A stretch of DNA of 45,851 bases, taken from positions 1-45,851 of the forward strand of contig JAIBAJ010000017.1 of assembly GCA_019695265.1 (NCBI GenBank), given 5' to 3'. Made by a program: the position numbers and the translations under genes. Every line of letters starts with the position of its first letter. The stretch's first letter is position 1. Under the pieces are notes generated by a model. It had not been told where the DNA came from. It ran no database searches and saw only the letters and a program-made list of their open reading frames with translations. Below, piece by piece: positions 1 to 22,778 of this stretch. The stretch is from Bacteroidia bacterium (lineage in GTDB: Bacteria > Bacteroidota > Bacteroidia > JAIBAJ01).

Positions 1-254
1 TCCCTTCCCTGCACCAGCACATGGACCCAAGCATCGACTCCTTTAAAGTGGAGGTTTTGGAAGTAGAACAAGACTTTTACATGGAGTTTAACCCCTGGAA
101 AAAACCTGATAAACGTAAAATTGCCAAAACCTTTCAATTTAAACCCTTTCACCTCAACGAAAAGGAATTTAAAGACCGATTATATGCCAGACGATTCGAT
201 CAGGAACCCAATTTTATTGAAAAACTTAAAACCGGTTTTGGTCTGTTAAAATAA
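1..254 (+). CDS. C-terminal end of an unidentified protein (partial, runs off the left edge)
   Basis: The reading frame is open from the first bases of the window (codons from position 3) to a TAA at 252-254, so this is the 3' end of a longer gene rather than a 77-residue protein starting at the ATG at 21. The visible part is charged and aromatic, has no obvious membrane segment, and ends in a basic/hydrophobic tail (NFIEKLKTGFGLLK). The stretch containing YARRFD is faintly like the FARKFD region near the end of core-2/I-branching (GT14) glycosyltransferases, but that is a weak impression. The next gene starts one base after the stop, so it is the first visible member of the PhyH operon. Product unknown. 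Confidence 0.55.
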   Translation, partial: PSLHQHMDPSIDSFKVEVLEVEQDFYMEFNPWKKPDKRKIAKTFQFKPFHLNEKEFKDRLYARRFDQEPNFIEKLKTGFGLLK

Positions 255-255
255 T

Positions 256-2145
256 ATGTTTTTCAAAGATCCTATATTACAAAAAGCCTTTGACACCGAT
301 GGCTTTGTTCGCTTTCCACTTTTAGACGAAAGTGAAGTACATGCCTTGAACGATCTTTATGACCATTCTTTTTCTTCTAACAATCCGGGCTTCTATTCCA
401 GTAGCTTCCTTGCCGATGAATCCCAACGAGCACTCCTTAACAACCGTATAGAAGAACTGGTACAAACTAAAATTAATACCCTTTGCCTGCCTCATCAAAA
501 ACTGGGTGCCTGCTTCCTGACAAAAAATACCGGACCTCAAGGCGAAATGCCCCCTCACCAGGATTGGACCATTGTAGATGAATCCGGGTTCCATGCCATG
601 ACCATTTGGATTCCGTTGCAAGATGTTAATGCCGAAAACGGCGCCCTGCAAGTAGTTCCCGGTAGCCATAAATTTTCAAAAGCCTTGCGTGGACCAAGTC
701 TGAAAGACCCTTTCAACGACCTGCATACCCAAATTAAAAAGGATGCTGTTTTGGTTCCCCTGAAAAAAGGTGAAGCCATCGCTTTCTCCCATGCCATCTT
801 ACACGCTTCCCCACCCAACCTAAGCCCAAAATTGCGCATCGCAGTAACCTATGGTCTTATACCCGAAAACGCTGAAATGTGCTTTTACCATCAGTCTTCG
901 CCCGGTATGGTGGAAAAATATACCGTAAAACCAGACTTTTTTCACCGTTACAACACCATGATTGGTCAGGCACCTTCCTGGTTACAACCTTCCGAAACCT
1001 TCAACTACGTCGAAAAACCGGTAAGCCTCCAAGAATACAACCTGGCAAAACGAAACTATCTGAAACAAAAAACCATGGACTCTTACCGCATGAACCCCAT
1101 TTTGAAGGATGCCAACCACCAACAATTTTTTGAAAAAAACGGTTATGTGGTTTTACCCATACTCGAACAAGATAAGGTTGAGCAACTGAAATCTTACTAC
1201 AATAACTCAGCCATAGCAAGCGAAAAACACGAAGGTTTTCATGTGAGCATGGATAGTGCCGATAAAGATTTTTGCCGGGCAACCCGCGATTTTGTTTGGT
1301 CATTAGTGCTTCCTGAAATGGAAAAATATGTTAGCAATTTTAAACCCTTCGTTGCCAGCTATACCGCCAAAGAACCTTCTCCTCGTGGAATCGTTCCTCC
1401 TCATCAGGATTGGAGCTTTGCCGATGGTGAACAAGAAGGAAATTGTTCCATAACCTGTTGGATTGCCTTGGTAGACACAACCCTTGACAACGGTGCACTT
1501 GGGGTTATTCCCGGAACACATCGCCTCATGCAAAACCACCGCCCTTCCCCTTCCCCGCAAACACCGGTTCCTCTGGCTAACCACATGTTCGAACTATTCC
1601 CCTTTACTCAACTGGTGGAAATGAAAGCCGGCGAAATGCTAATGTTTGATAACCGTACCTTCCATGCATCCCCTCCTAATATTGCTCAAAATACCCGCTT
1701 AGCAGTTGGAATAGGTATTACCCAAAAGGATGCTCAATTAGTCCATTATTATCTTAAACCCAATGGAAAAAAGGATACCCTCCTGAAATACCAAGTCGAC
1801 GAAGAGTTCTTTATCCAATACGATAATGCCAGACTCTCTAAAATGTACGAAAAAGGTGAACTAATTCAGGGATATGGCCAACCAATCGAACTGCCATACA
1901 GCTTCGAAAATTGGGATAAAACCACCATCCTGGAAGAAATTCAAGCCTTGGGAGCCACCATCAACCCTCCGCTCCAAGCCAGAATGAAAGAACTCTTCCC
2001 TTCCATGTACAACCAAACAAACCGGAATAACCCTGAACCTGAATTGGTTATGGACTCTACCCCACTCGATTCCAGAACCTTTTTCGAAAAATACACCCCT
2101 CTGAACATCTTTAGAGAAATTAAGTATAAATTAGGGTTGAATTAA
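256..2145 (+). CDS. Tandem two-domain phytanoyl-CoA dioxygenase (PhyH) family protein
   Basis: A 629-residue protein made of two complete PhyH-type Fe(II)/2-oxoglutarate dioxygenase domains in one chain. Domain 1 (about residues 5-240) has the HxD ligands H101 and D103 in PPHQDW, the distal H183 in HASPPN and the 2-oxoglutarate-binding R194. Domain 2 (about 280-540) repeats this with H383/D385, H470 and R481. All ligands are present in both, so both could be catalytic. PhyH enzymes hydroxylate or otherwise oxidise small substrates using O2 and 2-oxoglutarate; the substrate here is unknown. Single-domain members are normally about 250-320 residues, so this looks like an internal duplication or fusion. 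The C-terminus ends in a basic/aromatic tail (NIFREIKYKLGLN). It starts one base after the previous stop and ends one base before the next start. Confidence 0.85.
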   Translation: MFFKDPILQKAFDTDGFVRFPLLDESEVHALNDLYDHSFSSNNPGFYSSSFLADESQRALLNNRIEELVQTKINTLCLPHQKLGACFLTKNTGPQGEMPPHQDWTIVDESGFHAMTIWIPLQDVNAENGALQVVPGSHKFSKALRGPSLKDPFNDLHTQIKKDAVLVPLKKGEAIAFSHAILHASPPNLSPKLRIAVTYGLIPENAEMCFYHQSSPGMVEKYTVKPDFFHRYNTMIGQAPSWLQPSETFNYVEKPVSLQEYNLAKRNYLKQKTMDSYRMNPILKDANHQQFFEKNGYVVLPILEQDKVEQLKSYYNNSAIASEKHEGFHVSMDSADKDFCRATRDFVWSLVLPEMEKYVSNFKPFVASYTAKEPSPRGIVPPHQDWSFADGEQEGNCSITCWIALVDTTLDNGALGVIPGTHRLMQNHRPSPSPQTPVPLANHMFELFPFTQLVEMKAGEMLMFDNRTFHASPPNIAQNTRLAVGIGITQKDAQLVHYYLKPNGKKDTLLKYQVDEEFFIQYDNARLSKMYEKGELIQGYGQPIELPYSFENWDKTTILEEIQALGATINPPLQARMKELFPSMYNQTNRNNPEPELVMDSTPLDSRTFFEKYTPLNIFREIKYKLGLN

Positions 2146-2146
2146 T

Positions 2147-2545
2147 TTGAACGTGAAAGTTGGATTCTATACCGTTGATACCAGACACTTTGAAGATGGA
2201 ACCACCATCAACATTGTGGAACTTGGAAACCAATTACCCTTTGTGGTAAAACGGGTTTACAGCCTGGTATTAAACCAAGCCGGAGTGAAAAGAGGCGCTC
2301 ATGCACACCTCAACCAAACCCAATTGCTTTACGCCCTATCCGGTCATTGCATTGCCAAGGTATGGAACCAATTCGGCCAAATGCAAAGCTTCGACCTTTC
2401 CAATTCCGGCCAAGGCCTCCTCTTACCCCAAAACCACTGGATTGAAATTGAAGCCCTTCAGCCCTCCGTTTTGGTTTGCCTGGCTTCCGAACACTATCAA
2501 AACCTTCAAACCCTGTATAACAAATCCCAATTCCTAAACCAATAA
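2147..2545 (+). CDS. FdtA/WxcM-like sugar 3,4-ketoisomerase (cupin)
   Basis: A 132-residue cupin of the FdtA/QdtA/WxcM-C family. Members isomerise dTDP-4-keto-6-deoxyglucose to the 3-keto sugar on the way to amino-deoxysugars of O-antigens, S-layer glycans and secondary metabolites. Recognisable pieces are RVYSLVLNQAGVKRGAHAH (the conserved R-G-x-HAH segment with catalytic histidines), the QLLYALSGHC strand, the GLLLPQNHWIEIE strand and VLVCLASEHY near the end. The length fits a single-domain family member. The predicted start is TTG at 2147, one base after the preceding stop; a GTG at 2153 is an alternative. Its position inside a PhyH operon points to a modified deoxysugar or glycan product, but no nucleotide-sugar transferase or aminotransferase is visible here. 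Confidence 0.75.
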   Translation: MNVKVGFYTVDTRHFEDGTTINIVELGNQLPFVVKRVYSLVLNQAGVKRGAHAHLNQTQLLYALSGHCIAKVWNQFGQMQSFDLSNSGQGLLLPQNHWIEIEALQPSVLVCLASEHYQNLQTLYNKSQFLNQ

Positions 2546-2549
2546 TACT

Positions 2550-3494
2550 ATGTTCGACTTTCCATCCTCCATGAAACCCATTTTTAAAGATGCCGCTTTA
2601 CAGGCTGCCTTCGAAAAAGACGGGTTTGTAGTGGTCGATTTCTACTCACCCCAACAAGTTGAACAACTTATACAACTCTACCGTGACCTACACCCTAAAG
2701 ATGAAGTAGGTTTCTTCCCCAGTACGTTCTCGTCCGACAAAAACTACCGCAAAAAGGCCGACCAAACCATCCGGGAAGTGGCTGCAAACAGAATGCAGGA
2801 AATTTTTACCGATTTTCAGGAAGTTTGTGGCTCTTTCATCGTTAAAAGCCCCAATCCACAAAGCGGTATGTGTGTGCACCAAGACATGAGTCTGGTAGAC
2901 GAAAGCCGTTTTACCGGTGTCAATATTTGGGCTCCTTTAACCGATTTAACCATTCAAAACGGAGCTATTTTTGTATTACCCGGCAGCCACCGTTTCTTTC
3001 CTACCTACCGCGGTAGCAGCATACCCGAATTCTTCTCCCCTGTCATGAATGAAATTGTCGACTACCTCCAACCCGTGCTCATCTCTGCCGGGAAAGCAGT
3101 TGTTTTCGACCAAAGTATCATTCACTTCTCCCCGCCCAATTTGTCTGACCAAATCCGAATTGTAACCAATATCTTTATTACCAATGCCGACGCCGAGTTC
3201 AGAACCTATTTCTGGGACAAAAACCCGGAAAACAAAGTAGAAATTTATGCCCAGGAAAGTACATTCATGACTGATTTTGAGCAATTTGGACAAAACATTC
3301 ACAACCGCCCCCGGGTAGGTTCTCTAATCCAAACCGAAGTATATAGTTTCCCTAAAATCAATGCCGGTTTCCTGGCAGAAAATTGCAAACCCACCCAAGC
3401 CAGAATATTAATCGAATCGGAATGGAAGGCCTACCAAGACGCTCATCAACCAACTCCATCCCCCAAAAAATGGTGGCAAAAAATAATTGGATAA
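2550..3494 (+). CDS. Phytanoyl-CoA dioxygenase (PhyH) family protein
   Basis: A 314-residue single-domain PhyH-type dioxygenase. It opens with the family hallmark DGFVVVDF, and carries H110 and D112 (HQDM instead of the HQDW of its neighbours), distal H192 in IHFSPPN and R203 as the 2-oxoglutarate-binding arginine. The strand NGAIFVLPGSHRF is typical of the family. The ATG at 2550 is used; an in-frame ATG at 2571 (MKPIFKD) aligns better with the start of the paralogues and may be the true start. The C-terminus after the fold is a proline-rich linker and then KKWWQKIIG, a short aromatic/basic tail. It is a paralogue of the three other PhyH genes here and is cotranscribed by spacing. Substrate unknown. 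Confidence 0.83.
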   Translation: MFDFPSSMKPIFKDAALQAAFEKDGFVVVDFYSPQQVEQLIQLYRDLHPKDEVGFFPSTFSSDKNYRKKADQTIREVAANRMQEIFTDFQEVCGSFIVKSPNPQSGMCVHQDMSLVDESRFTGVNIWAPLTDLTIQNGAIFVLPGSHRFFPTYRGSSIPEFFSPVMNEIVDYLQPVLISAGKAVVFDQSIIHFSPPNLSDQIRIVTNIFITNADAEFRTYFWDKNPENKVEIYAQESTFMTDFEQFGQNIHNRPRVGSLIQTEVYSFPKINAGFLAENCKPTQARILIESEWKAYQDAHQPTPSPKKWWQKIIG

Positions 3495-3495
3495 A

Positions 3496-4422
3496 ATGGC
3501 CGTACGAATTTTTAAAAACAGTGAACACCAGGCTTTGTTCGACAAGCAAGGCTTTATTGTTCTCCCCTTTCTTACCACTTCCGAAATTCAAGACCTGGAA
3601 GCCTTTTTTGACCAAACCCATCCCAACCTCCACAACAATGGCTTCTTTTCCGATAGTTATCACCCCGATTACAACTATAAAAAACTAGCCAGCGAAAAAA
3701 TTGTCCACGTGTTTTCCCGGGCCTACGAATCCTACTTTACCAATTATACCCCTTTTGGTGGGGCCTTTTTATATAAAACCCCCGGACAACAAAGCGAATT
3801 GGCAGCACACCAGGATTGGACCATCGTTGACGAAACTCAACAAGTTGCACTCAATTGCTGGGTTCCACTTTGCGATATCAACGAAACAAACGGTTCTCTC
3901 ATGATACTCCCCGGTAGCCATTTCCAAAACTATCCCTCTTTGCGTTGTCCTACCTTGCCCTTCTTTTTTTCCGGTCACGAAGATATTATCCACCAAAACC
4001 TAATTCCGTTTCACGTAAAAGCAGGAACCGCCATCATCCTCAACCAAAGTGTAATTCATTACTCCTTACCCAACCGTTCCAATGCTGTTCGTAAAGCCAT
4101 TACAGCAGGCATCAAAAGCTTTGGAGCTCAAATGTATTTCCACTACAAAGTGCCTGACCTCGACCTTCTGGAAATATTTAAAGAAGAGGATTCCTTTTTA
4201 ATACAATTCGAAAATTTCGCCACCGATATCATGGAACGCCCCAAACTCGGTGAAAAAGTTGGCGAAAAACCATATACAAGTCCCCGGTTTACCAAATCAG
4301 AAATAAATTCCCTCATTCAGTCCATGCGCCTAAAAGCAGGTTTCGATTTTGTTCCATTGCCCCCTACCCAGGCACCCGCTTCAAATCTGTTTTCACGTTT
4401 AAAAAACTGGATTGCTCGCTAA
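3496..4422 (+). CDS. Phytanoyl-CoA dioxygenase (PhyH) family protein
   Basis: A 308-residue PhyH-type dioxygenase. I prefer the ATG at 3496 (MAVRIFK), one base after the previous stop, over an upstream in-frame TTG at 3487 that would overlap that gene. In this numbering the iron ligands are H105 and D107 (HQDW) and H188, with R199 for 2-oxoglutarate. One departure is the distal histidine motif, HYSLPN rather than HxSPPN. The C-terminal extension ends in LFSRLKNWIAR, an amphipathic basic/aromatic stretch like those of its neighbours. The gene overlaps the next one by one base (TAATG), implying translational coupling. Substrate unknown. Confidence 0.83.
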   Translation: MAVRIFKNSEHQALFDKQGFIVLPFLTTSEIQDLEAFFDQTHPNLHNNGFFSDSYHPDYNYKKLASEKIVHVFSRAYESYFTNYTPFGGAFLYKTPGQQSELAAHQDWTIVDETQQVALNCWVPLCDINETNGSLMILPGSHFQNYPSLRCPTLPFFFSGHEDIIHQNLIPFHVKAGTAIILNQSVIHYSLPNRSNAVRKAITAGIKSFGAQMYFHYKVPDLDLLEIFKEEDSFLIQFENFATDIMERPKLGEKVGEKPYTSPRFTKSEINSLIQSMRLKAGFDFVPLPPTQAPASNLFSRLKNWIAR

Positions 4423-5264
4423 TGGAAACAAATCCCATTTTACTTGATAAGGCCCTCGATGATGAGTTGAAACGAGAAGGGTATGTCGTTGTTCCTTTTT
4501 TATCTCCCCAACAAGTTATTGACTTAAAGACCTTTTTCATTCAAAACCACACCGACGCACTTCCAGGTTTCTACGCCACAGCGCATTCCCCAAACCTCGG
4601 GTTCCGAAAGGCAATGAACGACCGAATTATACAGGAGTTTAGCACTCCCATCCAAAGCCTGTTCAGTCATTGCAAACCTTTAGGAGGCTCTTTTGTTGTA
4701 AAAAACAACCAGGGTAGCGAGGTGTTACGTGCCCACCAGGATTGGAACATTGTGGATGAAACCAGGTTTCGTTCCTTTAATATTTGGGTTCCTTTAGTCG
4801 ATCTTTCTTCTCAAAACGGAGCAATTACCGTACTCCCGGGTAGCCATGCATGGATTGAAAACTACCGTGGGCCTAACATTCCTGATGATTTCGAACAGGT
4901 AAACTCCCAACTTTGGGATCGCATGCTTACCTTAAACATGAAAGCCGGTCAGGCACTTATTTACGACCACCGATTGTTTCACGCATCGCATGCCAATACA
5001 AGCGATTTCCTGCGCATGGCATGTGTTTTTGGCATCATCCCCGAAAATGCCGAAATGCTTTATTATTATGGCAATGGCAACCAGGTAGAAGTTTACAAAA
5101 GCAGTGTCGATTTCTTTATGAATGGCAACATCCAGGAAGGCAACAAACAATTAGAAATGGTCAAAACCATCCCCAGGCCCATTCCCAATTTAGAAAAGTT
5201 AGGTTTCACCCTTTCGAAGCCTGCTTCAAGCAACTTTTGGTCCCGATTGTTTGGCAGGGGCTAG
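4422..5264 (+). CDS. Phytanoyl-CoA dioxygenase (PhyH) family protein, last gene of the operon
   Basis: A 280-residue PhyH-type dioxygenase with H105/D107 (HQDW), distal H187 (FHASHAN) and R198. The ATG at 4422 overlaps the stop of the preceding paralogue (TAATG). It keeps the family frame of the other copies: an N-terminal LxREGYVVVPFL segment, GFYATAHSPN, the VDETRFRSFNIW strand and NGAITVLPGSH. The tail ends in NFWSRLFGRG. The stop TAG lies 46 nt upstream of the first copy of the dispersed structured repeat, so the operon transcript probably runs into that element. Confidence 0.83.
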   Translation: METNPILLDKALDDELKREGYVVVPFLSPQQVIDLKTFFIQNHTDALPGFYATAHSPNLGFRKAMNDRIIQEFSTPIQSLFSHCKPLGGSFVVKNNQGSEVLRAHQDWNIVDETRFRSFNIWVPLVDLSSQNGAITVLPGSHAWIENYRGPNIPDDFEQVNSQLWDRMLTLNMKAGQALIYDHRLFHASHANTSDFLRMACVFGIIPENAEMLYYYGNGNQVEVYKSSVDFFMNGNIQEGNKQLEMVKTIPRPIPNLEKLGFTLSKPASSNFWSRLFGRG

Positions 5265-5310
5265 GTATAACCGGCAAAAGAGAGGTTTACTATCTGGTAA
5301 TTGATGTTTA

Positions 5311-5470
5311 GGCGGGCCCCCTTCACGCCCCACCAACCGTCTGCAAATCTTCAGCGCTCCTGCATGGGCGTTCGGGTCACGCTATCGCCTGTAGTCCTCG
5401 TCCCCCTAGGCTTAAGGCCGTCGGGGTCCTGTGGGCTACCTGGCTCTATCGTTGCCCGGGGGTGCAAACC
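5311..5470 (+). repeat. Dispersed structured element, copy A
   Basis: This 160-bp element begins GGCGGGCCCCCTTCACGCC, has the core CGGGTCACGCTATC, and ends with CTATCGTTGCCCG and GTGCAA. Predicted pairings are CGCCC/GGGCG near the 5' side, CGGG/CCCG enclosing an internal loop, GCC/GGC, GTAGTCC/GGGCTAC (one G-U) and an inner CCCC/GGGG. It starts 46 nt after the stop of the last PhyH gene and points the same way. The same pairings recur with compensatory changes in the other five copies. I do not recognise a named family. Confidence 0.8.
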
Positions 5471-5860
5471 CAATCTGCTTACTTTATATCCATATTTATG
5501 AAGAATCAGGCTAAAAATTTTTTGAAATTTACAGTATCATTTGCCCATTCAAAAGCTGTTTAAGCAAAAAAACCACAGCCAATTTGGACCATTTTAAAAT
5601 TTCAATCGCTAGAAATAGATAACAGAAAAAGGAAATAAATTAAGTTCTATCCTAATAATACAGTACAACAATATCCTACTTATTGGCACATAGCTTATTG
5701 AATATGAAATAAAGATAAACCAAGTAAAAACTATTTTTTTATTCCAAAAATATTTACATACTTGCACACTATTGGTTGGTTAGGAGAGAGAAAGGGAGAG
5801 GGAGGCGGTAGATAGGTGTAACGGCAAAAACAGACTACCATTCTATTATCATATTTTTTT

Positions 5861-5868
5861 TATATTTG
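5861..5868 (+). promoter_or_regulatory. Bacteroidota-type -7 motif (TATATTTG) for the MNT/HEPN pair
   Basis: TATATTTG fits the TAnnTTTG -7 consensus and ends 4 nt before the ATG at 5873, implying a leaderless or nearly leaderless transcript. No clear TTG -33 element is visible at the expected distance. Confidence 0.45.
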
Positions 5869-5872
5869 CTTT

Positions 5873-6166
5873 ATGAAATTAGAAGTAGAAAGAATCGATG
5901 CTATCAAAAATTACTTTTCTACAAAGCCAGTGTTAAATGCTTACCTATTTGGGTCATTTGCAAGAAACGAGGCGGATTATCAAAGTGATATTGACATACT
6001 TGTTGACTTGGATTACTCCCAAAAAATTGGATTACAGTTCATTCAAATGAAATTAGATTTAGAGAAGATATTAGGCAATAAAGTTGATTTGGTATCTTCC
6101 CAAGGACTTTCACCATATATCCGACCAATAATTGAAAATGAAAAGAAACTAATCTATGCGCGGTAA
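5873..6166 (+). CDS. mntA: MNT-type nucleotidyltransferase antitoxin (MntA-like)
   Basis: A 97-residue minimal nucleotidyltransferase of the DNA polymerase beta fold. The signature GSFARNEADYQSDIDILVDL gives G27-S28 and the metal-binding D39 and D41. In described HEPN/MNT modules the MNT protein silences the HEPN RNase by adenylylating a tyrosine in its RX4HXY motif. That partner gene follows immediately and overlaps it by 11 nt (ATG at 6156), although it is interrupted. The length is normal for solitary MNT antitoxins. The ATG at 5873 sits just downstream of a TATATTTG promoter motif. Confidence 0.85.
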   Translation: MKLEVERIDAIKNYFSTKPVLNAYLFGSFARNEADYQSDIDILVDLDYSQKIGLQFIQMKLDLEKILGNKVDLVSSQGLSPYIRPIIENEKKLIYAR

Positions 6167-6518
6167 GCTTGGAGATAGTGTTAGGGTGCAGCACATTTAT
6201 GAAGCAATCCTTGAAATTGAATCGTAGTTGTTGGACAAGGATTTTTCAGACTTTATGAATAATTCAATGATGAGATTTGCATGTATAAAGCAGATGGAAA
6301 TAATTGGAGAAGCAAGCAATCATATATCTGAGACAACCAAATTAAATTTTTCATCAATAGAATGGGCTCAAATAGTTGGGATGAGAAATGTTTTTGTTCA
6401 TGAGTATTTTGGGGTTGACTCGACTCTGGTTTGGGAAATAATAAAAAATGATCTTCCGGATTTAAAGGAGAAAATTAAACTAATTCTAAACAGTTTGACA
6501 GAAAGCCGCAGCACCTAA
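6156..6518 (+). pseudogene. hepT: HEPN-domain (DUF86, HepT-like) toxin interrupted by an in-frame TAG
   Basis: Read from the ATG at 6156, which overlaps mntA as usual for these operons, the frame gives MRGKLGDSVRVQHIYEAILEIES, then TAG at 6225-6227 (codon 24), then continues without shift to TAA at 6516-6518. The downstream part is a clear DUF86/HepT protein: IKQMEIIGEASNHIS and the RNase motif RNVFVHEY (R77, H82, Y84 in full-length numbering), with the tyrosine that MNT partners modify. A tyrosine codon at position 24 would suit the family, so TAT/TAC to TAG is the simplest history. A TTG directly after the stop (6228) could restart a 96-residue product lacking the first helix. I call it a probable nonsense-mutated toxin; reinitiation is possible. 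Confidence 0.75.
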
Positions 6519-6644
6519 CACGGTGCAAAAGCCATAAGCCGTTTTGTTCTTCGAATCGACATTTTTCTGTTGGCTGAATTTTGGGCTTCGCATAAACATT
6601 TATCTGCAAATTCGCTTACGGCTTCTGCAACGGGAACGTTGGGT
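6513..6644 (+). repeat. attC-like cassette end, first copy
   Basis: The left end ACCTAAC matches RYYYAAC and overlaps the hepT stop codon; the right end GTTGGGT matches GTTRRRY. Between them the arms pair imperfectly: CGGTGCAAAAGCCATAAGC on the left against GCTTACGGCTTCTGCAACG on the right. The length of 132 bp is within the range of integron attC sites. No integrase is present in the window, so this would be an integrase-less cassette end or a cassette-like repeat. Confidence 0.6.
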
Positions 6645-6689
6645 GCAAAGGAATTGCCTAAAAACTAACCTTTTTTCCAAAAAAAAACT

Positions 6690-6697
6690 TAACTTTG
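6690..6697 (+). promoter_or_regulatory. -7 promoter motif (TAACTTTG) for the RelB/RelE-like pair
   Basis: TAACTTTG matches TAnnTTTG and lies 16 nt before the antitoxin ATG at 6714. It sits just after the first attC-like repeat, so this toxin-antitoxin unit carries its own promoter. No clear -33 TTG is seen. Confidence 0.4.
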
Positions 6698-6713
6698 GAA
6701 TTAAATAATAAAA

Positions 6714-6956
6714 ATGGACATTCAGGTAAGGAAATTAAATTTTGTACAAGAGTTCCTTAGGGTTGCAGATGAAGAACTGGTTTCTAAGTTAGAAAATATT
6801 CTACAGGTTGAAAGAAGAAAACAGTTAGAAAAGGATCCAGTTCCAATGACTATTGAAGAATTTAAGAGGAAGGTAGAGGAATCAGAAAATGATTTTTTGA
6901 ATGGACGAGAGAACGATGCAAAGATTTTGCTTAAGCAAATAGATTCATGGAAATAA
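6714..6956 (+). CDS. RelB/ParD-like antitoxin
   Basis: An 80-residue acidic helical protein. The first half (FVQEFLRVADEELVSKLENIL) looks like a dimerising helical segment and the second half (MTIEEFKRKVEESENDFLNGRENDA) is the toxin-binding tail common in Bacteroidota RelE/ParE partners. No DNA-binding ribbon-helix-helix is obvious to me. The downstream toxin frame overlaps its last codons: an ATG at 6947 lies inside this gene. Assignment rests on size, composition and neighbour. Confidence 0.68.
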   Translation: MDIQVRKLNFVQEFLRVADEELVSKLENILQVERRKQLEKDPVPMTIEEFKRKVEESENDFLNGRENDAKILLKQIDSWK

Positions 6957-6964
6957 GAGTATAG

Positions 6965-7261
6965 TTGTCTGATACTTCTTTACGGCAATTGCAGGAAATT
7001 TTTGATTATTACACAATAAAAGCAGGAGAAAAAGTAGCTAAAAGGTTGGTAAAAGGAATTGTTGAACAATCTATTCAATTGGAAAGAAATCCATTGATTG
7101 GTCCTGCAGAACCATTATTAGAATCAAACCTATTTGAATATCGATATCTTGTAGTGGGAAATTATAAATTGATTTACAGGTACGAAAATCAAACAATTCG
7201 AGTTGTTTCAGTATTTGACTGCAGGCAAAATCCAACCAAACTAGAAGGAATTTCAGAATAG
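6965..7261 (+). CDS. RelE/ParE-family toxin, possibly 5'-truncated by a TAG codon
   Basis: A 98-residue RelE/ParE-fold protein: SLRQLQEIFDYYTIKAGEKVAKRLVKGI helices, the NPLIGPAEPLL turn, FEYRYLVVGNYKLIYRYE strands and the terminal IRVVSVFDCRQNPTKL strand. These toxins are mRNA interferases or gyrase poisons. The natural start appears to be the ATG at 6947, overlapping the antitoxin gene by 10 nt, which gives MEIRV followed by an in-frame TAG at 6962-6964 and then LSDTSLRQL. Translation may instead begin at the TTG at 6965 directly after that TAG, which would remove the first beta-strand. The toxin may therefore be weakened or dead. The same TAG-TTG arrangement occurs in the neighbouring HEPN toxin. 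Confidence 0.72.
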   Translation: MSDTSLRQLQEIFDYYTIKAGEKVAKRLVKGIVEQSIQLERNPLIGPAEPLLESNLFEYRYLVVGNYKLIYRYENQTIRVVSVFDCRQNPTKLEGISE

Positions 7262-7406: not shown

Positions 7407-9836
7407 ATGAAATATAAAAACATAAGAGAAGAAGAACTAAAAAATAAAGTCGGTGCGGACTGGTTCAAAACATTCGACACGACCGAAATAATAGGCAATA
7501 TTGACTTTTCAGTTTTCCCTAAACAAGCCGACATTTTCGGCCGAACTCCCCTACTTTGGGCAGAAGCAAAGACGGGAATTTTTGACGTGCCGACAATGTT
7601 TGTGCAACTTATCTTGACAATAGGTAAAGCACGAACATTTGACAAAACAATACCACCTGCATTTTTGGGAGCTTTTGACTTTAAAAAAATTGCTTTTATT
7701 CCTTACATAAGCGTTCAAGACATTTTTTACCTAAATGACTTCAATTGGAATGTTACGCCAAGTAACCACGAAACAAAAGAGTTTAAGTTAATCGCAGAAC
7801 GTATTGAGAAAACGATAAAACAAAGGACTTACGTTTACGACTACATTCAAGACGAAAAAGAACTCAAATTTTTCATTTCCAACAATGTTGCAAAAGCGAC
7901 AGAAGTCAGCAAAATAAAAATTGACAAAAATAATTTCATTCCTATTTATCTGCGTTGGCTTGACATTGTAAAACCAATAATTGACGTAAATTGGGATGAA
8001 CTTAAAAAGGCAAACATTTTAGACAGCGACTTTTATTTGGCAGATTTGTTTGTGGACGACAGAGATACGCAACATATTGCCGATGATGCAACCATTCGTG
8101 AAAACTTGTTTGTTATTTTTCAAAATCAAGGCTACAAAATTGCAAAAGAGAACATCAAGCAAATGTTTGATGCAACCATCAATATTAAAGTAAAAGAAAC
8201 TTATCAGCATTTTTGGAAACGATACAAACGACCACCAATCAAGGAATTTCAAGAATACATAATAGAGCGTAGAGATTTACTTGTTCCGCAAGACATCAGA
8301 GAAAGAAAAGGTGCGTTTTTCACGCCACGAATTTGGGTTGAACTTTCACAAAAGTATTTGGCTGACTATTTAGGTGAAGATTGGCAAGAAGAATATTACA
8401 TATGGGACTGTGCCTGCGGCACAGGCAATCTTCTTGCAGGTTTAACAAACAAATACAATATCTGGGCATCAACGCTTGACCAAGCAGACGTTAGTGTAAT
8501 TCACGAACGTATTAAACACGGTGCAAACTTGCTTGATAATCACGTTTTTCAATTCGACTTTTTGAATGATGATTTCACCAAACTTCCACAAGGTTTACAA
8601 GCCATTATAAATGACGAGAAGAAACGTAAAAAGCTAATAATTTACATAAATCCGCCATACGCAGAAGCTGACAACAGGCGTGGAGATGGACGAACAGGCG
8701 TAGCGATTTCTCAAATCCATAAAAAGTATTCCGACTTAATGGGTTACACAAAACGAGAGTTGTATGTGCAGTTTTTAACAAGAATTTATTGCGAAATACC
8801 TCAAGTGGTGCTTGCAAATTTTTCAAAGTTGAAAAATTTGCAAGCACCAATGTTCTCGGATTTCCGGACGTTTTTTCGAGCGAAGCTCGAAAAATTATTT
8901 TTGACACCTGCGGACACATTCGACAACGTGAAAGGGCAATTTCCAATTGGTTTTTTCATCTGGAATACAGACAAGAAAGAAGTTTTTGAACACATTGAAG
9001 CGGACATTTACGATAAAAACCAAACTTTTATCGGAATTAAAAACATTTATGCTTATGACAAACTAAAATTTATAAACGATTGGGTAAAAACTTTTAGAAA
9101 TACAAAATCCGAATCAATTGCAACAATTATAGGCGTAGGTAGCGATTTTCAAAATCAAAGATTGGTGCGTTTTGGCGAACCATTTATGAAAGTTCCTGCT
9201 TCAAATCATAATTGGCAAACTACCAAAGAAAATTTAATTGAAACATCAATTTATTACACAGTTCGTCACATTATTGAAGCAAATTGGTTAAATGACAGAG
9301 ACCAGTTTTTATTTCCAAACGAAAATTGGAAAATTGATTTAGAATTTCAAAATGATTGCTTAGCTTATACTCTATTCAGTAACAATATTTCGAGCAGTTT
9401 TGGAATTAATCATTGGATACCTTTCGCAGAAAGCGAAGTAAACTCGATGGAAAAGTTTGAAAGTAACTTTATGACAAACTTCATTAACGGAAAACTAAAA
9501 ACTGAAAAGGAGTCTGACGGTGTTCTATTTGACGATAAGATCAAAATTGGTATTTATGACAATAAACCAAGAGAGTTTTCAGAACAAGCAAAAACTGTTT
9601 TTAAATCAGGTCAAGAACTTTGGAAATACTACCATTCACACAAAGACATTAACATAAACGCAAGTTTATATGACATACGTGAATACTTTCAAGGACGTAA
9701 CAACAAAGGCAGAATGAACTCACGAAGCGATAACGAAATTTACACAAAACTAATAGCAGAATTGCGAGACAAATTAGATTTACTTGCGGACAAAATAACA
9801 CCGAAAATTTATGAATACGAATTTTTAAAACAATGA
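7407..9836 (+). CDS. Eco57I-type fused restriction-modification enzyme (N6-adenine DNA methyltransferase)
   Basis: An 809-residue protein. Around residues 333-345 is the AdoMet motif I (WDCACGTGNLLAG) and around 414-417 the catalytic NPPY motif of N6-adenine methyltransferases. The region before motif I (RKGAFFTPRIWVELSQKYL) is typical of these enzymes. Near the N-terminus LLWAEAKTG (E53, K55) could be the (D/E)xK part of a PD-(D/E)XK nuclease, so this may be a single-chain type IIG enzyme that both cuts and methylates. The C-terminal half is probably the target recognition region. There is no separate endonuclease or specificity gene next to it. The coding sequence contains a perfect 21-bp inverted repeat (8806-8849) and a 10-bp one (8872-8894), yet the frame stays open. 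It is A/T-rich compared with flanking genes, consistent with transfer. Confidence 0.8.
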   Translation: MKYKNIREEELKNKVGADWFKTFDTTEIIGNIDFSVFPKQADIFGRTPLLWAEAKTGIFDVPTMFVQLILTIGKARTFDKTIPPAFLGAFDFKKIAFIPYISVQDIFYLNDFNWNVTPSNHETKEFKLIAERIEKTIKQRTYVYDYIQDEKELKFFISNNVAKATEVSKIKIDKNNFIPIYLRWLDIVKPIIDVNWDELKKANILDSDFYLADLFVDDRDTQHIADDATIRENLFVIFQNQGYKIAKENIKQMFDATINIKVKETYQHFWKRYKRPPIKEFQEYIIERRDLLVPQDIRERKGAFFTPRIWVELSQKYLADYLGEDWQEEYYIWDCACGTGNLLAGLTNKYNIWASTLDQADVSVIHERIKHGANLLDNHVFQFDFLNDDFTKLPQGLQAIINDEKKRKKLIIYINPPYAEADNRRGDGRTGVAISQIHKKYSDLMGYTKRELYVQFLTRIYCEIPQVVLANFSKLKNLQAPMFSDFRTFFRAKLEKLFLTPADTFDNVKGQFPIGFFIWNTDKKEVFEHIEADIYDKNQTFIGIKNIYAYDKLKFINDWVKTFRNTKSESIATIIGVGSDFQNQRLVRFGEPFMKVPASNHNWQTTKENLIETSIYYTVRHIIEANWLNDRDQFLFPNENWKIDLEFQNDCLAYTLFSNNISSSFGINHWIPFAESEVNSMEKFESNFMTNFINGKLKTEKESDGVLFDDKIKIGIYDNKPREFSEQAKTVFKSGQELWKYYHSHKDININASLYDIREYFQGRNNKGRMNSRSDNEIYTKLIAELRDKLDLLADKITPKIYEYEFLKQ
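8806..8849. repeat. Perfect 21-bp inverted repeat inside the methyltransferase gene
   Basis: The left arm 8806-8826 and right arm 8829-8849 are exact reverse complements separated only by AG. The sequence starts TGGTGCTTGC and ends GCAAGCACCA. It lies in the coding frame and encodes VVLANFSKLKNLQAP. A second perfect inverted repeat of 10 bp with a GAA loop follows at 8872-8894. Confidence 0.9.
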
Positions 9837-12840: not shown

Positions 12841-14073
12841 ATGAAGCGACGATATTTTGCAAACCGACTCTTGTTTAGCTCTTCCGGCAATGGCCAGGGA
12901 GTAGAAGGCAGCCCCATTTTGGTCAGGATTGCGCGGATTGGGATTGCAATTGGACTTGCGGTAATGCTGATTTCTGTTTCGGTTGTAACCGGATTTCAAC
13001 ATGCTATCCGAGACAAGGTAACAGGGTTTGGTTCCCATTTGGTTATTTCCAATTTTGACAGCAATGAATCGCTCGAGGCCATTCCTATTCCGGCTAATCC
13101 ACCGTATTTGGCACAGCTCAAAGCCCATCCGGACGTAAGTCATGTTCAGGCCATTGCTACCAAGGCCGGAATAATTCGGGTAAAGGACAATATTGAAGGC
13201 ATTGTGGTAAAAGGAATTGGGGCCGATTTTGATTGGAGCTTTTTTCAAAACAACCTGGTGGAAGGTAAAGTATTTGAAACCTCTGATACGGCCAAATCGA
13301 GAAATTTACTGGTTTCCCAAGCTCTATGCCAACGCCTGAACCTGCATTTAGGCGATGCGGTAAAGGTGTTCTTCATCCAGAAAAATGATCGATTAGAACG
13401 TAAATTCACCATAACAGGAATTTATAAAACCGGATACAGTGATTTTGATAAAATCTATGTTTTGGCAAACATTGCCCATATTCGTAAACTGAACGAATGG
13501 GACTCTAATCAGGCTAGTTTTCTGGAAGTGACAGTTAAAGACTTTGATCGTTTAGCCACGGTGGCCGACGAATTGGAAGAACTCATTGGTTATGACCAAA
13601 AAGCTACCACCATTGAAGAAGAAAGGCCCTGGATTTTCGATTGGCTCCATATGCTCGATTTAAACGCCATCATTATTCTGGCACTCATGCTGGTCGTTTC
13701 CTGTATAATTATGGTATCAGCTATGTTGGCCTTGATTTTGGAAAAGACTCAGGTGATAGGAACTCTTAAAACAATAGGCATGAACAATGCTGATTTAAGA
13801 GGGATTTTTATGCTGGTTGGTATCAGAATTGCCTCCATTGGATTCTTATGGGGTAATTTGGTTGGAATAGGTCTGCTCCTACTCCAATACTTTACCCACC
13901 TCATCCAACTGGATGAAACCCATTACTATGTTTCCTTTGTTCCGGTTAATCTGGACTTTCGCAATTTTTTGTTGGTTAACCTCCTGAGCTCAGGTATGCT
14001 ATTCCTCAGCATCTTTATTCCTCTATTCATCCTGTATTCCATTAGCCCATTGAAAGCCATTCGGTACAAATAG
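12841..14073 (+). CDS. LolE/FtsX-family ABC transporter permease
   Basis: A 410-residue permease of the MacB/FtsX superfamily, close to LolC/LolE lipoprotein-releasing permeases. It opens with ANRLLFSSSGNGQGV and SPILVRIARIGIAIGLAVMLISVSVVTGF (first membrane segment), then a large periplasmic domain starting GFGSHLVISNFDS, then three membrane segments near the C-terminus (IIILALMLVVSCIIMVSAMLA; GIRIASIGFLWGNLVG; FLLVNLLSSGMLFLSIFIP). I use the ATG at 12841; a TTG at 12829 would add MKRR. Its partner ATPase is not adjacent, as is common in Bacteroidota. It likely moves lipoproteins from inner membrane to periplasmic carrier, by family analogy. Confidence 0.8.
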   Translation: MKRRYFANRLLFSSSGNGQGVEGSPILVRIARIGIAIGLAVMLISVSVVTGFQHAIRDKVTGFGSHLVISNFDSNESLEAIPIPANPPYLAQLKAHPDVSHVQAIATKAGIIRVKDNIEGIVVKGIGADFDWSFFQNNLVEGKVFETSDTAKSRNLLVSQALCQRLNLHLGDAVKVFFIQKNDRLERKFTITGIYKTGYSDFDKIYVLANIAHIRKLNEWDSNQASFLEVTVKDFDRLATVADELEELIGYDQKATTIEEERPWIFDWLHMLDLNAIIILALMLVVSCIIMVSAMLALILEKTQVIGTLKTIGMNNADLRGIFMLVGIRIASIGFLWGNLVGIGLLLLQYFTHLIQLDETHYYVSFVPVNLDFRNFLLVNLLSSGMLFLSIFIPLFILYSISPLKAIRYK

Positions 14074-14197
14074 CCTTTTGACTTTAATCCTTTATTTCGC
14101 CTAAAACCTGCTTCGTTGTAAGCATTCCGGAGCAAATCCTACTCCAAATAATTCCTTGGAAGGCTAATGCTTAACATTTCTTAACACGGGTTGGGAT

Positions 14198-14225
14198 TTG
14201 TTAAAAAAAGGGGAGGGTAATTTTG
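14198..14225 (+). promoter_or_regulatory. Promoter of the moxR/bat operon (TTG-N17-TAATTTTG)
   Basis: TTG at 14198-14200 and TAATTTTG at 14218-14225 are spaced by 17 nt, matching the Bacteroidota TTG/TAnnTTTG consensus. The ATG of moxR follows at 14244. Confidence 0.6.
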
Positions 14226-14243
14226 TTCCCCCAAAAATTTAAT

Positions 14244-15233
14244 ATGGTTACAGATATACGCGAATTGAATGAAAGGATCCAAAAAGAAAGTGCATTTGTG
14301 GATCTGATTACCATGGAAATGGAAAAGACCATTGTTGGTCAAAAGTACATGGTAGAAAGGCTGTTGATTGGTTTGCTATCCAACGGTCATATTTTATTAG
14401 AAGGAGTACCCGGATTGGCGAAAACCCTGGCAATTAAATCCTTGGCCAGTACCATCCATGGCAACTTCAGTCGTATTCAGTTTACCCCTGATTTACTTCC
14501 TGCGGATTTGATTGGAACCCTTATATACAATCAAAAAAAGGAGGAGTTTCACATTCGGAAAGGACCGGTATTTGCCAATTTCGTGTTGGCAGATGAAATT
14601 AACCGTGCCCCGGCTAAAGTGCAATCGGCCCTGCTTGAAGCCATGCAAGAAAGACAGGTAACCATTGGAGATGAAACTTTTGTTTTGCCGGAACCATTCT
14701 TGGTATTGGCCACCCAAAATCCGGTGGAACAAGAAGGAACCTACCCTTTACCGGAGGCCCAGGTAGATCGCTTTATGTTAAAAATTGTGGTGGGCTACCC
14801 ACAACGGGAAGAGGAAAAAAGAATTATTCGTCAAAATGTATTGGGTGACTTTCCAAAACCCAACCCCATTATGCATCCGGAAGATATCATCAAGGCCAGA
14901 TCGGTGGTTCGGGATGTTTACATGGATGAAAAGATTGAAAATTACATCGTCGATATTGTGTTTGCCAGTCGTTTTCCCGATCAATATAAACTAGGCAAAT
15001 TTAAAAACCTGATTAGTTTTGGTGGTTCACCAAGGGCAAGTATTAACCTGGCCCTGGCAGCCAAAGCCTATGCCTTCATCAAACGCAGAGGATACGTAAT
15101 TCCCGAAGACGTAAGAGCCGTTTGTAACGACGTGCTTCGTCACCGTATTGGATTAACCTACGAAGCAGAAGCAGAAAATATCAGTACCGAGGAAATCATT
15201 GCTGAAATCCTCAACACCGTGGAAGTGCCTTAA
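14244..15233 (+). CDS. moxR: MoxR-family AAA+ ATPase
   Basis: A 329-residue MoxR ATPase. I use the ATG at 14244 (MVTDIREL); the longer frame starts at a TTG that overlaps the promoter motif. Walker A is GVPGLAKT (residues 54-61), Walker B is FVLADE (D117, E118) with INRAP, then the LATQNPVEQEGTYPLPEAQVDRFM sensor region. MoxR proteins act as chaperone-like ATPases together with von Willebrand A proteins, which are exactly what the next genes encode. It heads an eight-gene block through batE; the gap to the DUF58 gene is 53 nt. Confidence 0.92.
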   Translation: MVTDIRELNERIQKESAFVDLITMEMEKTIVGQKYMVERLLIGLLSNGHILLEGVPGLAKTLAIKSLASTIHGNFSRIQFTPDLLPADLIGTLIYNQKKEEFHIRKGPVFANFVLADEINRAPAKVQSALLEAMQERQVTIGDETFVLPEPFLVLATQNPVEQEGTYPLPEAQVDRFMLKIVVGYPQREEEKRIIRQNVLGDFPKPNPIMHPEDIIKARSVVRDVYMDEKIENYIVDIVFASRFPDQYKLGKFKNLISFGGSPRASINLALAAKAYAFIKRRGYVIPEDVRAVCNDVLRHRIGLTYEAEAENISTEEIIAEILNTVEVP

Positions 15234-15286
15234 AACCGGAAATCGTTTCCTTGTTTTATTAACCTTTAAATGCCTTCGTTTCTTGA

Positions 15287-16156
15287 ATGGAAACCAATGA
15301 ACTTCTTTCCAAAGTAAGGAAGATAGAGATTAAAACACGGGGTTTAAGCAACCAGGTGTTTTCAGGCGAATACCATTCGGTGTTTAAAGGGCGGGGTATG
15401 GCCTTTTCGGAAGTAAGAGAATACACCCCGGGCGACGATATTAGAACCATCGATTGGAATGTAACCGCCCGTTTTGGTCACCCATATGTAAAAGTATTTG
15501 AGGAAGAAAGAGAATTAACTGTTATGCTCCTGGCCGACATGAGCGCTTCCGGCTTGTTTGGAACCCAATCCAGGCAAAAACAAGATATGATGACCGAAAT
15601 AGCCGCCGTTCTTGCCTTTTCTGCCATCCAAAACAACGATAAAGTCGGTATCATCTTTTTTACCGACCGCATCGAAAAATACATACCGCCCAAAAAAGGC
15701 AAAAGCCATATTCTGCGTATCATCCGTGAATTGATCGATTTCAAACCCATAGGTTCGAAAACCGATTTAGGCCTAACGCTGAAATATTTCACCAACGTGA
15801 TGAAAAAACGTTGTACAGCCTTCGTTATTTCTGACTTTATTTCTCCCGATTTTACTGATTCCCTAAAAATTGCCAACCGAAAACACGATGTTATCGCTCT
15901 TCGCCTTTACGACAAACGTGAAAAGGAAATGCCGGCCATCGGATTAGTGCGGTTACAAGATCAAGAAAGCGGAAAATCGCAATGGGTCGATTTTTCCGTT
16001 GAAGAAAACAGAAAGCAATATGTCATTAATGCCTTGAGAAGGGAAGAAAAACTGAAGGAAATATTTAACCGAAGCGGTGTTGATTTCGCCAATATCGCCA
16101 CCCATGAAAACTATGTTAATCCGTTGATGAACCTTTTTAAACGCAGGGAAAAATGA
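15287..16156 (+). CDS. DUF58 domain protein of the bat operon
   Basis: A 289-residue DUF58 protein. The signature VFKGRGMAFSEVREYTPGDDIRTIDWNVTARFGHPYVKVFEEERE is diagnostic; the following part (TVMLLADMSASGLFG) is a von Willebrand A-like fold with a MIDAS-type D-x-S-x-S segment. Family members partner with MoxR ATPases. It has no signal peptide or membrane segment and is likely cytoplasmic. Its stop overlaps the next gene by 4 nt (ATGA). Confidence 0.9.
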   Translation: METNELLSKVRKIEIKTRGLSNQVFSGEYHSVFKGRGMAFSEVREYTPGDDIRTIDWNVTARFGHPYVKVFEEERELTVMLLADMSASGLFGTQSRQKQDMMTEIAAVLAFSAIQNNDKVGIIFFTDRIEKYIPPKKGKSHILRIIRELIDFKPIGSKTDLGLTLKYFTNVMKKRCTAFVISDFISPDFTDSLKIANRKHDVIALRLYDKREKEMPAIGLVRLQDQESGKSQWVDFSVEENRKQYVINALRREEKLKEIFNRSGVDFANIATHENYVNPLMNLFKRREK

Positions 16157-22574: not shown

Positions 22575-22619
22575 CCCAAAAAACTCTTTCCCCGCTATTG
22601 GCTATATTTTAGTTTTTTT

Positions 22620-22778
22620 GGCGGGCCCCCTTCACGCCTGCCAACTCCCTGCCAACCCAAAAGTAATGCAATAGGCGTTCGGGTCACGCTATCGCCCGTA
22701 GTCCTCGTCCCCCGAGGCTAACGCCGTCGGGGTCCTGTGGGCTACTTGGCTCTATCGTTGCCCGATGGTGCAAGCCCC
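22620..22778 (+). repeat. Dispersed structured element, copy C
   Basis: It begins GGCGGGCCCCCTTCACGCC 45 nt after the batE stop and runs in the same direction. The stems are CGCCT/AGGCG, TCGGG/CCCGA, GCC/GGC and GTAGTCC/GGGCTAC, with an apical GGC-TAAC-GCC hairpin. The core strands CGGGTCACGCTATC and CTATCGTTGCCCG and the GTGCAA end are intact. Confidence 0.8.

Follow-up and report, generated by a model that had tools for sequence, protein, structure and literature searches.

The left end of a Bacteroidia contig carries a compact array of genes for PhyH-type oxygenases (PF05721), enzymes dependent on Fe(II) and 2-oxoglutarate (2OG). The window, that is, the whole stretch analysed, is the complete contig C17 (45,851 bases) of a 3.83-Mb genome in 213 contigs. 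Here the array is read, with moderate confidence, as belonging to a conserved cassette for the oxidative tailoring of a lipid-linked surface glycan, which an ATP-binding cassette (ABC) transporter of the Wzm/Wzt type would export, because the array recurs in relatives, usually beside an exporter of surface sugar chains. Five open reading frames in 256-5264, all on the forward strand, are separated by +1, +4, +1 and -1 nucleotides (nt), in agreement with the spacing of -1 to 4 nt given in an earlier note on this DNA. They encode PhyH domains of five groups, designated B to F, and an FdtA-like cupin. The earlier note placed the operon start at 256, which does not hold: nt 3-254 encode the C-terminus of a sixth PhyH gene, of group A, which ends 1 nt ahead of position 256. 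The operon thus holds at least six PhyH domains and begins beyond the contig edge, on the upstream side that is not readable from C17. The product of nt 3-254 matches group A C-termini at 35-45% identity (blastp, best E 8e-19, with no other match below E 0.05) and aligns to positions 224-304 of the group A profile (E 1.6e-22); the remainder of the cut gene was not found elsewhere in its own assembly.

The array is conserved across the phylum. A single-sequence scan of genome contigs with the 629-amino-acid (aa) double-domain protein gave no match. Relatives of this fusion occur in 5 of 98 same-class genomes at 38-52% identity, one of them having only the second domain and a group A domain. An alignment of five orthologues, used as the query, yielded 62 named loci, nearly all in metagenome-assembled genomes of Bacteroidota from several orders; these loci are not independent, a few being the same genomes as the first-seen relatives. 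The array A-(B)C-D-E-F recurs in about 60 Bacteroidota loci, which establishes the gene arrangement as real and not a product of chance. As resolved by gene calling and group profiles, the recurring order is a Wzm-like permease, A, (B)C, D, E and F, often followed by an S-adenosylmethionine (SAM) methyltransferase, a Wzt-like ATPase, UbiA and WelO5-like genes. Core genes are separated by a median of 2 nt, and the loci hold a median of six PhyH domains, with up to ten.

The core array is present in 59 loci, with the upstream side readable in 51 and the downstream side in 43. Wzm lies within two genes upstream of the array in 37 of the 51, while the methyltransferase and Wzt are found downstream in 22 and 20 of the 43, respectively. 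Since the genome of the window has only two Wzm-like genes, chance adjacency to Wzm would amount to about 0.1% per locus. The named families nearest to the Wzm and Wzt homologues are galactan and teichoic-acid exporters. Other neighbours comprise DegT aminotransferase, GNAT N-acyltransferase, KAS III, UbiA, carbamoyltransferase, glycosyltransferase (GT2), epimerase and LMF1 genes. This context, together with a Wzt-like ATPase beside PhyH and WelO5-like genes on contig C48 of the same genome, supports the surface glycan or glycolipid pathway proposed in the earlier note.

Two further families accompany these loci. A conserved SAM methyltransferase (CMAS/UbiE-like, motif AGCGVCGPA; L062 (G041) 14069-15880 and L064 6706-7623) travels with the array and is fused to the group F PhyH in five loci. 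Three proteins first clustered with PhyH turned out to be methyltransferases, linked through the PhyH-methyltransferase fusion. Family c20 (L122 7174-8103 and relatives), seen in 15 loci, has no Pfam or NCBIfam match and usually lies on the opposite strand between the GNAT and Wzm genes.

Several observations weigh against a glycan as the product. An adjacent Wzm is absent from 14 of the 51 loci, and some arrays stand between housekeeping genes, so that the array behaves as a self-contained unit. The earlier note had regarded an unrelated upstream operon as grounds for abandoning its proposal; such surroundings do occur in some relatives, and the array is nevertheless kept. On C17 no obvious glycosyltransferase adjoins the array, and neither Wzm nor Wzt lies on this contig, whose upstream side is cut; no Wzm of the relatives' kind was found in the assembly. 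Against the curated models of named Wzm, Wzt and TagH, the Wzm/Wzt homologues fall far short of the cut-offs. Of the solved structures, the one best matched by sequence is MysH, which acts on a small molecule. Finally, any glycan, lipid or enzyme activity of an array member is a prediction.

Two other readings of the substrate were considered. The compound tailored by the array and exported by the ABC transporter may instead be a membrane lipid or a small secreted molecule (a natural product); this main rival is possible, and clearly less probable than a glycan. The closest solved relatives by sequence, including MysH, SnoK, SnoN, PHYH and SyrB2, are small-molecule or acyl-chain enzymes, the neighbouring methyltransferase is nearest to the cyclopropane-fatty-acid type, KAS III, UbiA and LMF1 occur nearby, and some arrays are distant from glycan genes. 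The exporter families and the sugar aminotransferase, GNAT, epimerase and glycosyltransferase neighbours, however, speak against it, and no polyketide synthase or nonribosomal peptide synthetase was noticed in the arrays examined, although no systematic search was made. Catabolic or assimilatory oxygenases (for phosphonates or lipids, for example) with an exporter nearby by accident are improbable. The domains weakly resemble the models of methylphosphonate hydroxylase and of ectoine hydroxylase, but the scores fall far below the curated cut-offs (35 versus 500 and 30 versus 336), by which both families were rejected, and the recurrent Wzm adjacency does not fit an accident.

All four PhyH proteins exceed the Pfam cut-off of 22 bits (160.7 over two stretches for the 629-aa protein, and 74.3, 72.3 and 82.2 for those of 314, 308 and 280 aa), and the HxD motif, the second His and the Arg align in all five domains, as the earlier note had stated. 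Domains B-F carry intact Fe/2OG ligands, and turnover dependent on 2OG and O2 is predicted for them. The structure model of the 629-aa protein (predicted local distance difference test, pLDDT, 88) contains two complete domains with the double-stranded beta-helix fold; its Foldseek matches include MysH, SnoK and SnoN. The group A and B-C models adopt PhyH-type folds, with SnoN, SnoK, SyrB2, MysH, EctD, KanJ, HygX and EvdO2 as the best solved matches. Within this set, SnoN, SnoK, KanJ, HygX and EvdO2 act on sugars or oligosaccharides, and HygX/EvdO are orthoester oxygenases acting on sugars (PMC8234114). Identity to solved structures is only 14-24%, and the resemblance of fold therefore does not fix the substrate. 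Two kinds of named enzyme were considered and rejected: the 2OG oxygenases of sporadic carbohydrate clusters (TIGR04324, at most 36.2 versus 150 bits; TIGR04436, at most 24.6 versus 200 bits) and SyrB2-type chlorinating enzymes (TIGR01762, 53.2 versus 226.3 bits; the motif is HxD, not HxA/G).

Beyond the second catalytic domain of the 629-aa protein, a linker (aa 587-605, pLDDT below 50) tethers a C-terminal helix in the model. The C-terminal peptide YTPxNIxxEIK occurs on many B-C, A-C, C, D, E, F and F-methyltransferase proteins of relatives, and the shared helix likely serves as a docking or membrane peptide.

Read in this way, the array probably carries out a multi-step oxidation of a surface sugar or sugar-lipid. 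The PhyH enzymes B-F would work on the cytoplasmic side of the inner membrane, each using Fe(II), 2OG and O2 on a different C-H bond of one membrane-bound glycan or sugar-lipid; fusions and the common C-terminal helix may keep them together. The methyltransferase, sometimes with WelO5-like or Asp-hydroxylase-like enzymes, would add further modifications, after which Wzm/Wzt would export the product. PhyH enzymes can also epimerise, cyclise and halogenate, and for this reason only part of the proposal of 'successive hydroxylations of one scaffold' stands: several oxygenases are kept as one unit, as separate groups under purifying selection, whereas the hydroxylation of one scaffold stays conjectural. 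If the glycan reading is correct, many Bacteroidota keep a conserved cassette of several oxygenases for a single surface molecule, of which no description was found, and the surface chemistry of the phylum is richer than known.

The phylogeny of the domains, which the earlier note had called for, resolves them into separate orthologous groups. In a tree of 422 PhyH domains, group A forms a clade of 54/54 (support 0.994) and group E a clade of 46 of 49 with three intruders (support 0.998). Group D is recovered at 51/51 with weak support; taken together, C, D and F show few intruders at lower support, and B is mostly recovered (36/39). Recent tandem duplication, leaving redundant or decaying copies without distinct roles, would explain why the paralogues lie in tandem. 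It is nevertheless very improbable and was rejected on the tree, identity and selection data: the five domains of the window share only 24-32% pairwise identity, whereas their identity to members of the respective group in other genomes averages 42-51%, the groups form separate clades, and the ligands are intact. Between two close relatives, the ratio of nonsynonymous to synonymous substitution rates (omega) is 0.05-0.09 for A, B-C, D, E, F and the methyltransferase. It is strongly supported that the domains are ancient orthologous groups kept as one unit under purifying selection. Neighbouring domains are fused in varied ways in relatives (B-C in 32 proteins, A-C in 13, F-methyltransferase in 5 and D-E in 2), which suggests physical cooperation.

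Group A departs from the other groups at the iron site. In relatives, Asn replaces the Fe-ligand Asp (HQN or HEN) in 49/49 strong full-length group A domains, with both His and the Arg invariant, while strong B-F members have HxD at every readable site. The motif of the window's own copy lies off the contig, and HxN is known from relatives only. Of 395 genomes sampled from the class, 10 carry a group A gene at full length; the group A product is modelled with a pLDDT of 89, and the gene shows the strongest constraint among those compared (omega 0.050). The literature search turned up no account of a natural HxN group, although one may exist. The carboxylate ligand is also lost in halogenases (PMC10187165) and in the two-His hydroxylase AspH. 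The most probable role of group A is that of a partner of C that binds metal and 2OG, with its oxygenation altered or lost. As the group of the cut enzyme is without the iron-binding Asp, not every step need be hydroxylation.

A narrower account, compatible with a glycan product, is that the cut gene encodes a pseudo-oxygenase that heterodimerises with C and activates it, in the manner of TlxI/TlxJ; this is a serious possibility, rated slightly short of even. The invariant HxN motif is in its favour, as are the A-C fusions, the position of A adjoining C or B-C in most other loci, and the presence of TlxIJ among the Foldseek matches. In the heterodimeric 2OG oxygenases TlxIJ and TlxAC an altered subunit likewise pairs with an active one (PMC12141560). 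TlxI, however, is fungal and has lost the 2OG Arg, whereas group A keeps this Arg and both His invariantly, with Asn for Asp, as if metal and 2OG still bind. The invariant HxN group offers a natural test of carboxylate replacement in 2OG enzymes, with a pseudoenzyme, new chemistry or halogenation as outcomes. A second PhyH type with HxN was seen in two genomes, each time directly after a WelO5-like gene with HxE (L086 21552-22385; L055 8053-8898, G053 C8).

Elsewhere in the genome of the window, twelve PhyH matches are distributed over four contigs. Contig C48 combines PhyH genes and the Wzt-like ATPase with three WelO5-family proteins, a B12-radical SAM enzyme, and Asp-hydroxylase and cupin_8/JmjC-type oxygenases. 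C120 and C148 bear PhyH genes in the vicinity of radical SAM-like genes and GT2 genes. The Wzm/Wzt pairs on C34 and C58 were rejected as partners of the array; they belong to other loci, and no PhyH gene was seen there. The C48 WelO5-family proteins score 177 bits against a cut-off of 27 (PF22814), with HCG in two and HCE in the third; halogenation is a prediction only. The family recurs in 14 loci of relatives, mostly with HxG. Like the WelO5-type aliphatic halogenases, the proteins of C48 and of relatives pass the family cut-off and have HxG at the aligned site; unlike them, they adjoin polysaccharide-export genes and not alkaloid genes, and a few have HxE. With their HxG members in array loci, halogenation at the surface becomes a specific idea open to checking. 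A more far-reaching scenario remains doubtful, in which a relay of five to ten Fe/2OG oxygenases would make a surface glycan or glycolipid bearing carbon-halogen or other unusual groups, the HxN group A would use a two-His iron site for a non-hydroxylating reaction, and the WelO5-like HxG proteins would be true halogenases of that glycan.

A literature search, mostly without subscription papers, found no published description of a PhyH array; for PhyH together with O-antigen, Wzm/Wzt or polysaccharide clusters it returned only a mention in Xanthomonas. There, the PhyH gene XAC3597 lies in the lipopolysaccharide cluster of Xanthomonas citri with wzm/wzt, and an insertion mutant came from a screen for biofilm-defective mutants (PMC3130047). 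XAC3597 resembles the array in the linkage of PhyH to wzm/wzt and differs in being a single named PhyH gene from a different phylum with an uncharacterised enzyme. With the known PhyH oxygenases (SnoN/SnoK, MysH, KanJ, HygX/EvdO2, PHYH and EctD), several of which act on sugars or oligosaccharides, B-F share the fold, HxD...H and Arg; the array differs from them in its number of domains by an exporter, its low identity and the HxN of group A. Wzm/Wzt-dependent O-antigen and polysaccharide loci are likewise similar in the Wzm-like permease and Wzt-like ATPase around the relatives' arrays and in the sugar-nucleotide, glycosyltransferase and GNAT genes nearby. Here, in contrast, many tailoring genes encode 2OG oxygenases, the array can stand apart from the exporter, and the functions of the members are predictions.

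The cupin encoded within the array is an accessory to it. The 132-aa protein scores 72.4 bits for FdtA (PF05523) against a cut-off of 23, confirming its assignment in the earlier note, and its RGAHAH aligns with the HxH pair of the solved FdtA 2pa7. Family and HxH pair are shared with the dTDP-sugar 3,4-ketoisomerases FdtA/QdtA and make a sugar ketoisomerase plausible. An FdtA-like gene stands beside the array in only 1 of the 62 loci, and the suggested link between FdtA and PhyH arrays was discarded as a rule. The window copy is a second, weaker paralogue, a 118-bit FdtA being encoded on C34. That contig (L075) combines the stronger FdtA with a DegT-type aminotransferase and a separate Wzm/Wzt pair, likely for a dTDP-3-amino-sugar polysaccharide.

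Table 1. Features of the array and of the related contig C48; positions refer to the window unless a contig is named.
Feature	Position	Strand	Basis or context
C-terminal 83 aa of PhyH gene, group A (HxN group), cut by contig edge, catalytic part outside window	3..254	+	Translation open to TAA; blastp and group A profile
Fused double PhyH protein, 629 aa, groups B and C; H101-D103-H183 and R194; H383-D385-H470 and R481	256..2145	+	Pfam, alignment, structure model, orthologues
C-terminal helix of the 629-aa protein, aa 609-626, FFEKYTPLNIFREIKYKL	2080..2133	+	Structure model; tail also in relatives
FdtA/WxcM-type cupin, 132 aa, TTG start, HxH pair in RGAHAH	2147..2545	+	PF05523; alignment to FdtA 2pa7
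PhyH oxygenase group D, 314 aa, HQD...H...R	2550..3494	+	Pfam, ligand alignment, tree
PhyH oxygenase group E, 308 aa from ATG (311 aa from upstream TTG), HQD...H...R	3496..4422	+	Pfam, ligand alignment, tree
PhyH oxygenase group F, 280 aa, HQD...H...R, last operon gene seen in window	4422..5264	+	Pfam, ligand alignment, tree
Three WelO5-family Fe/2OG proteins	Contig C48 (L013) 403-1251, 3767-4573, 5698-6549		Near PhyH genes and Wzt-like ATPase

Downstream of group F, no plausible gene begins before 5873. Scans for promoters and terminators yielded sites no more numerous than in shuffles. A GC-rich intergenic repeat of about 170 bp lies at 5305-5480 and 22616-22777, with at least 40 copies genome-wide at 81-97% identity. 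Directly downstream of the array, 5873-7261 contains, as judged by eye, two small toxin-antitoxin-like gene pairs, one of a nucleotidyltransferase with a HEPN-like protein and one of a RelE/ParE-like protein with its partner. At 7407-9836 follows an 809-aa protein with a DNA adenine methylase-like NPPY motif, also noted by eye, which is probably a restriction-modification enzyme.

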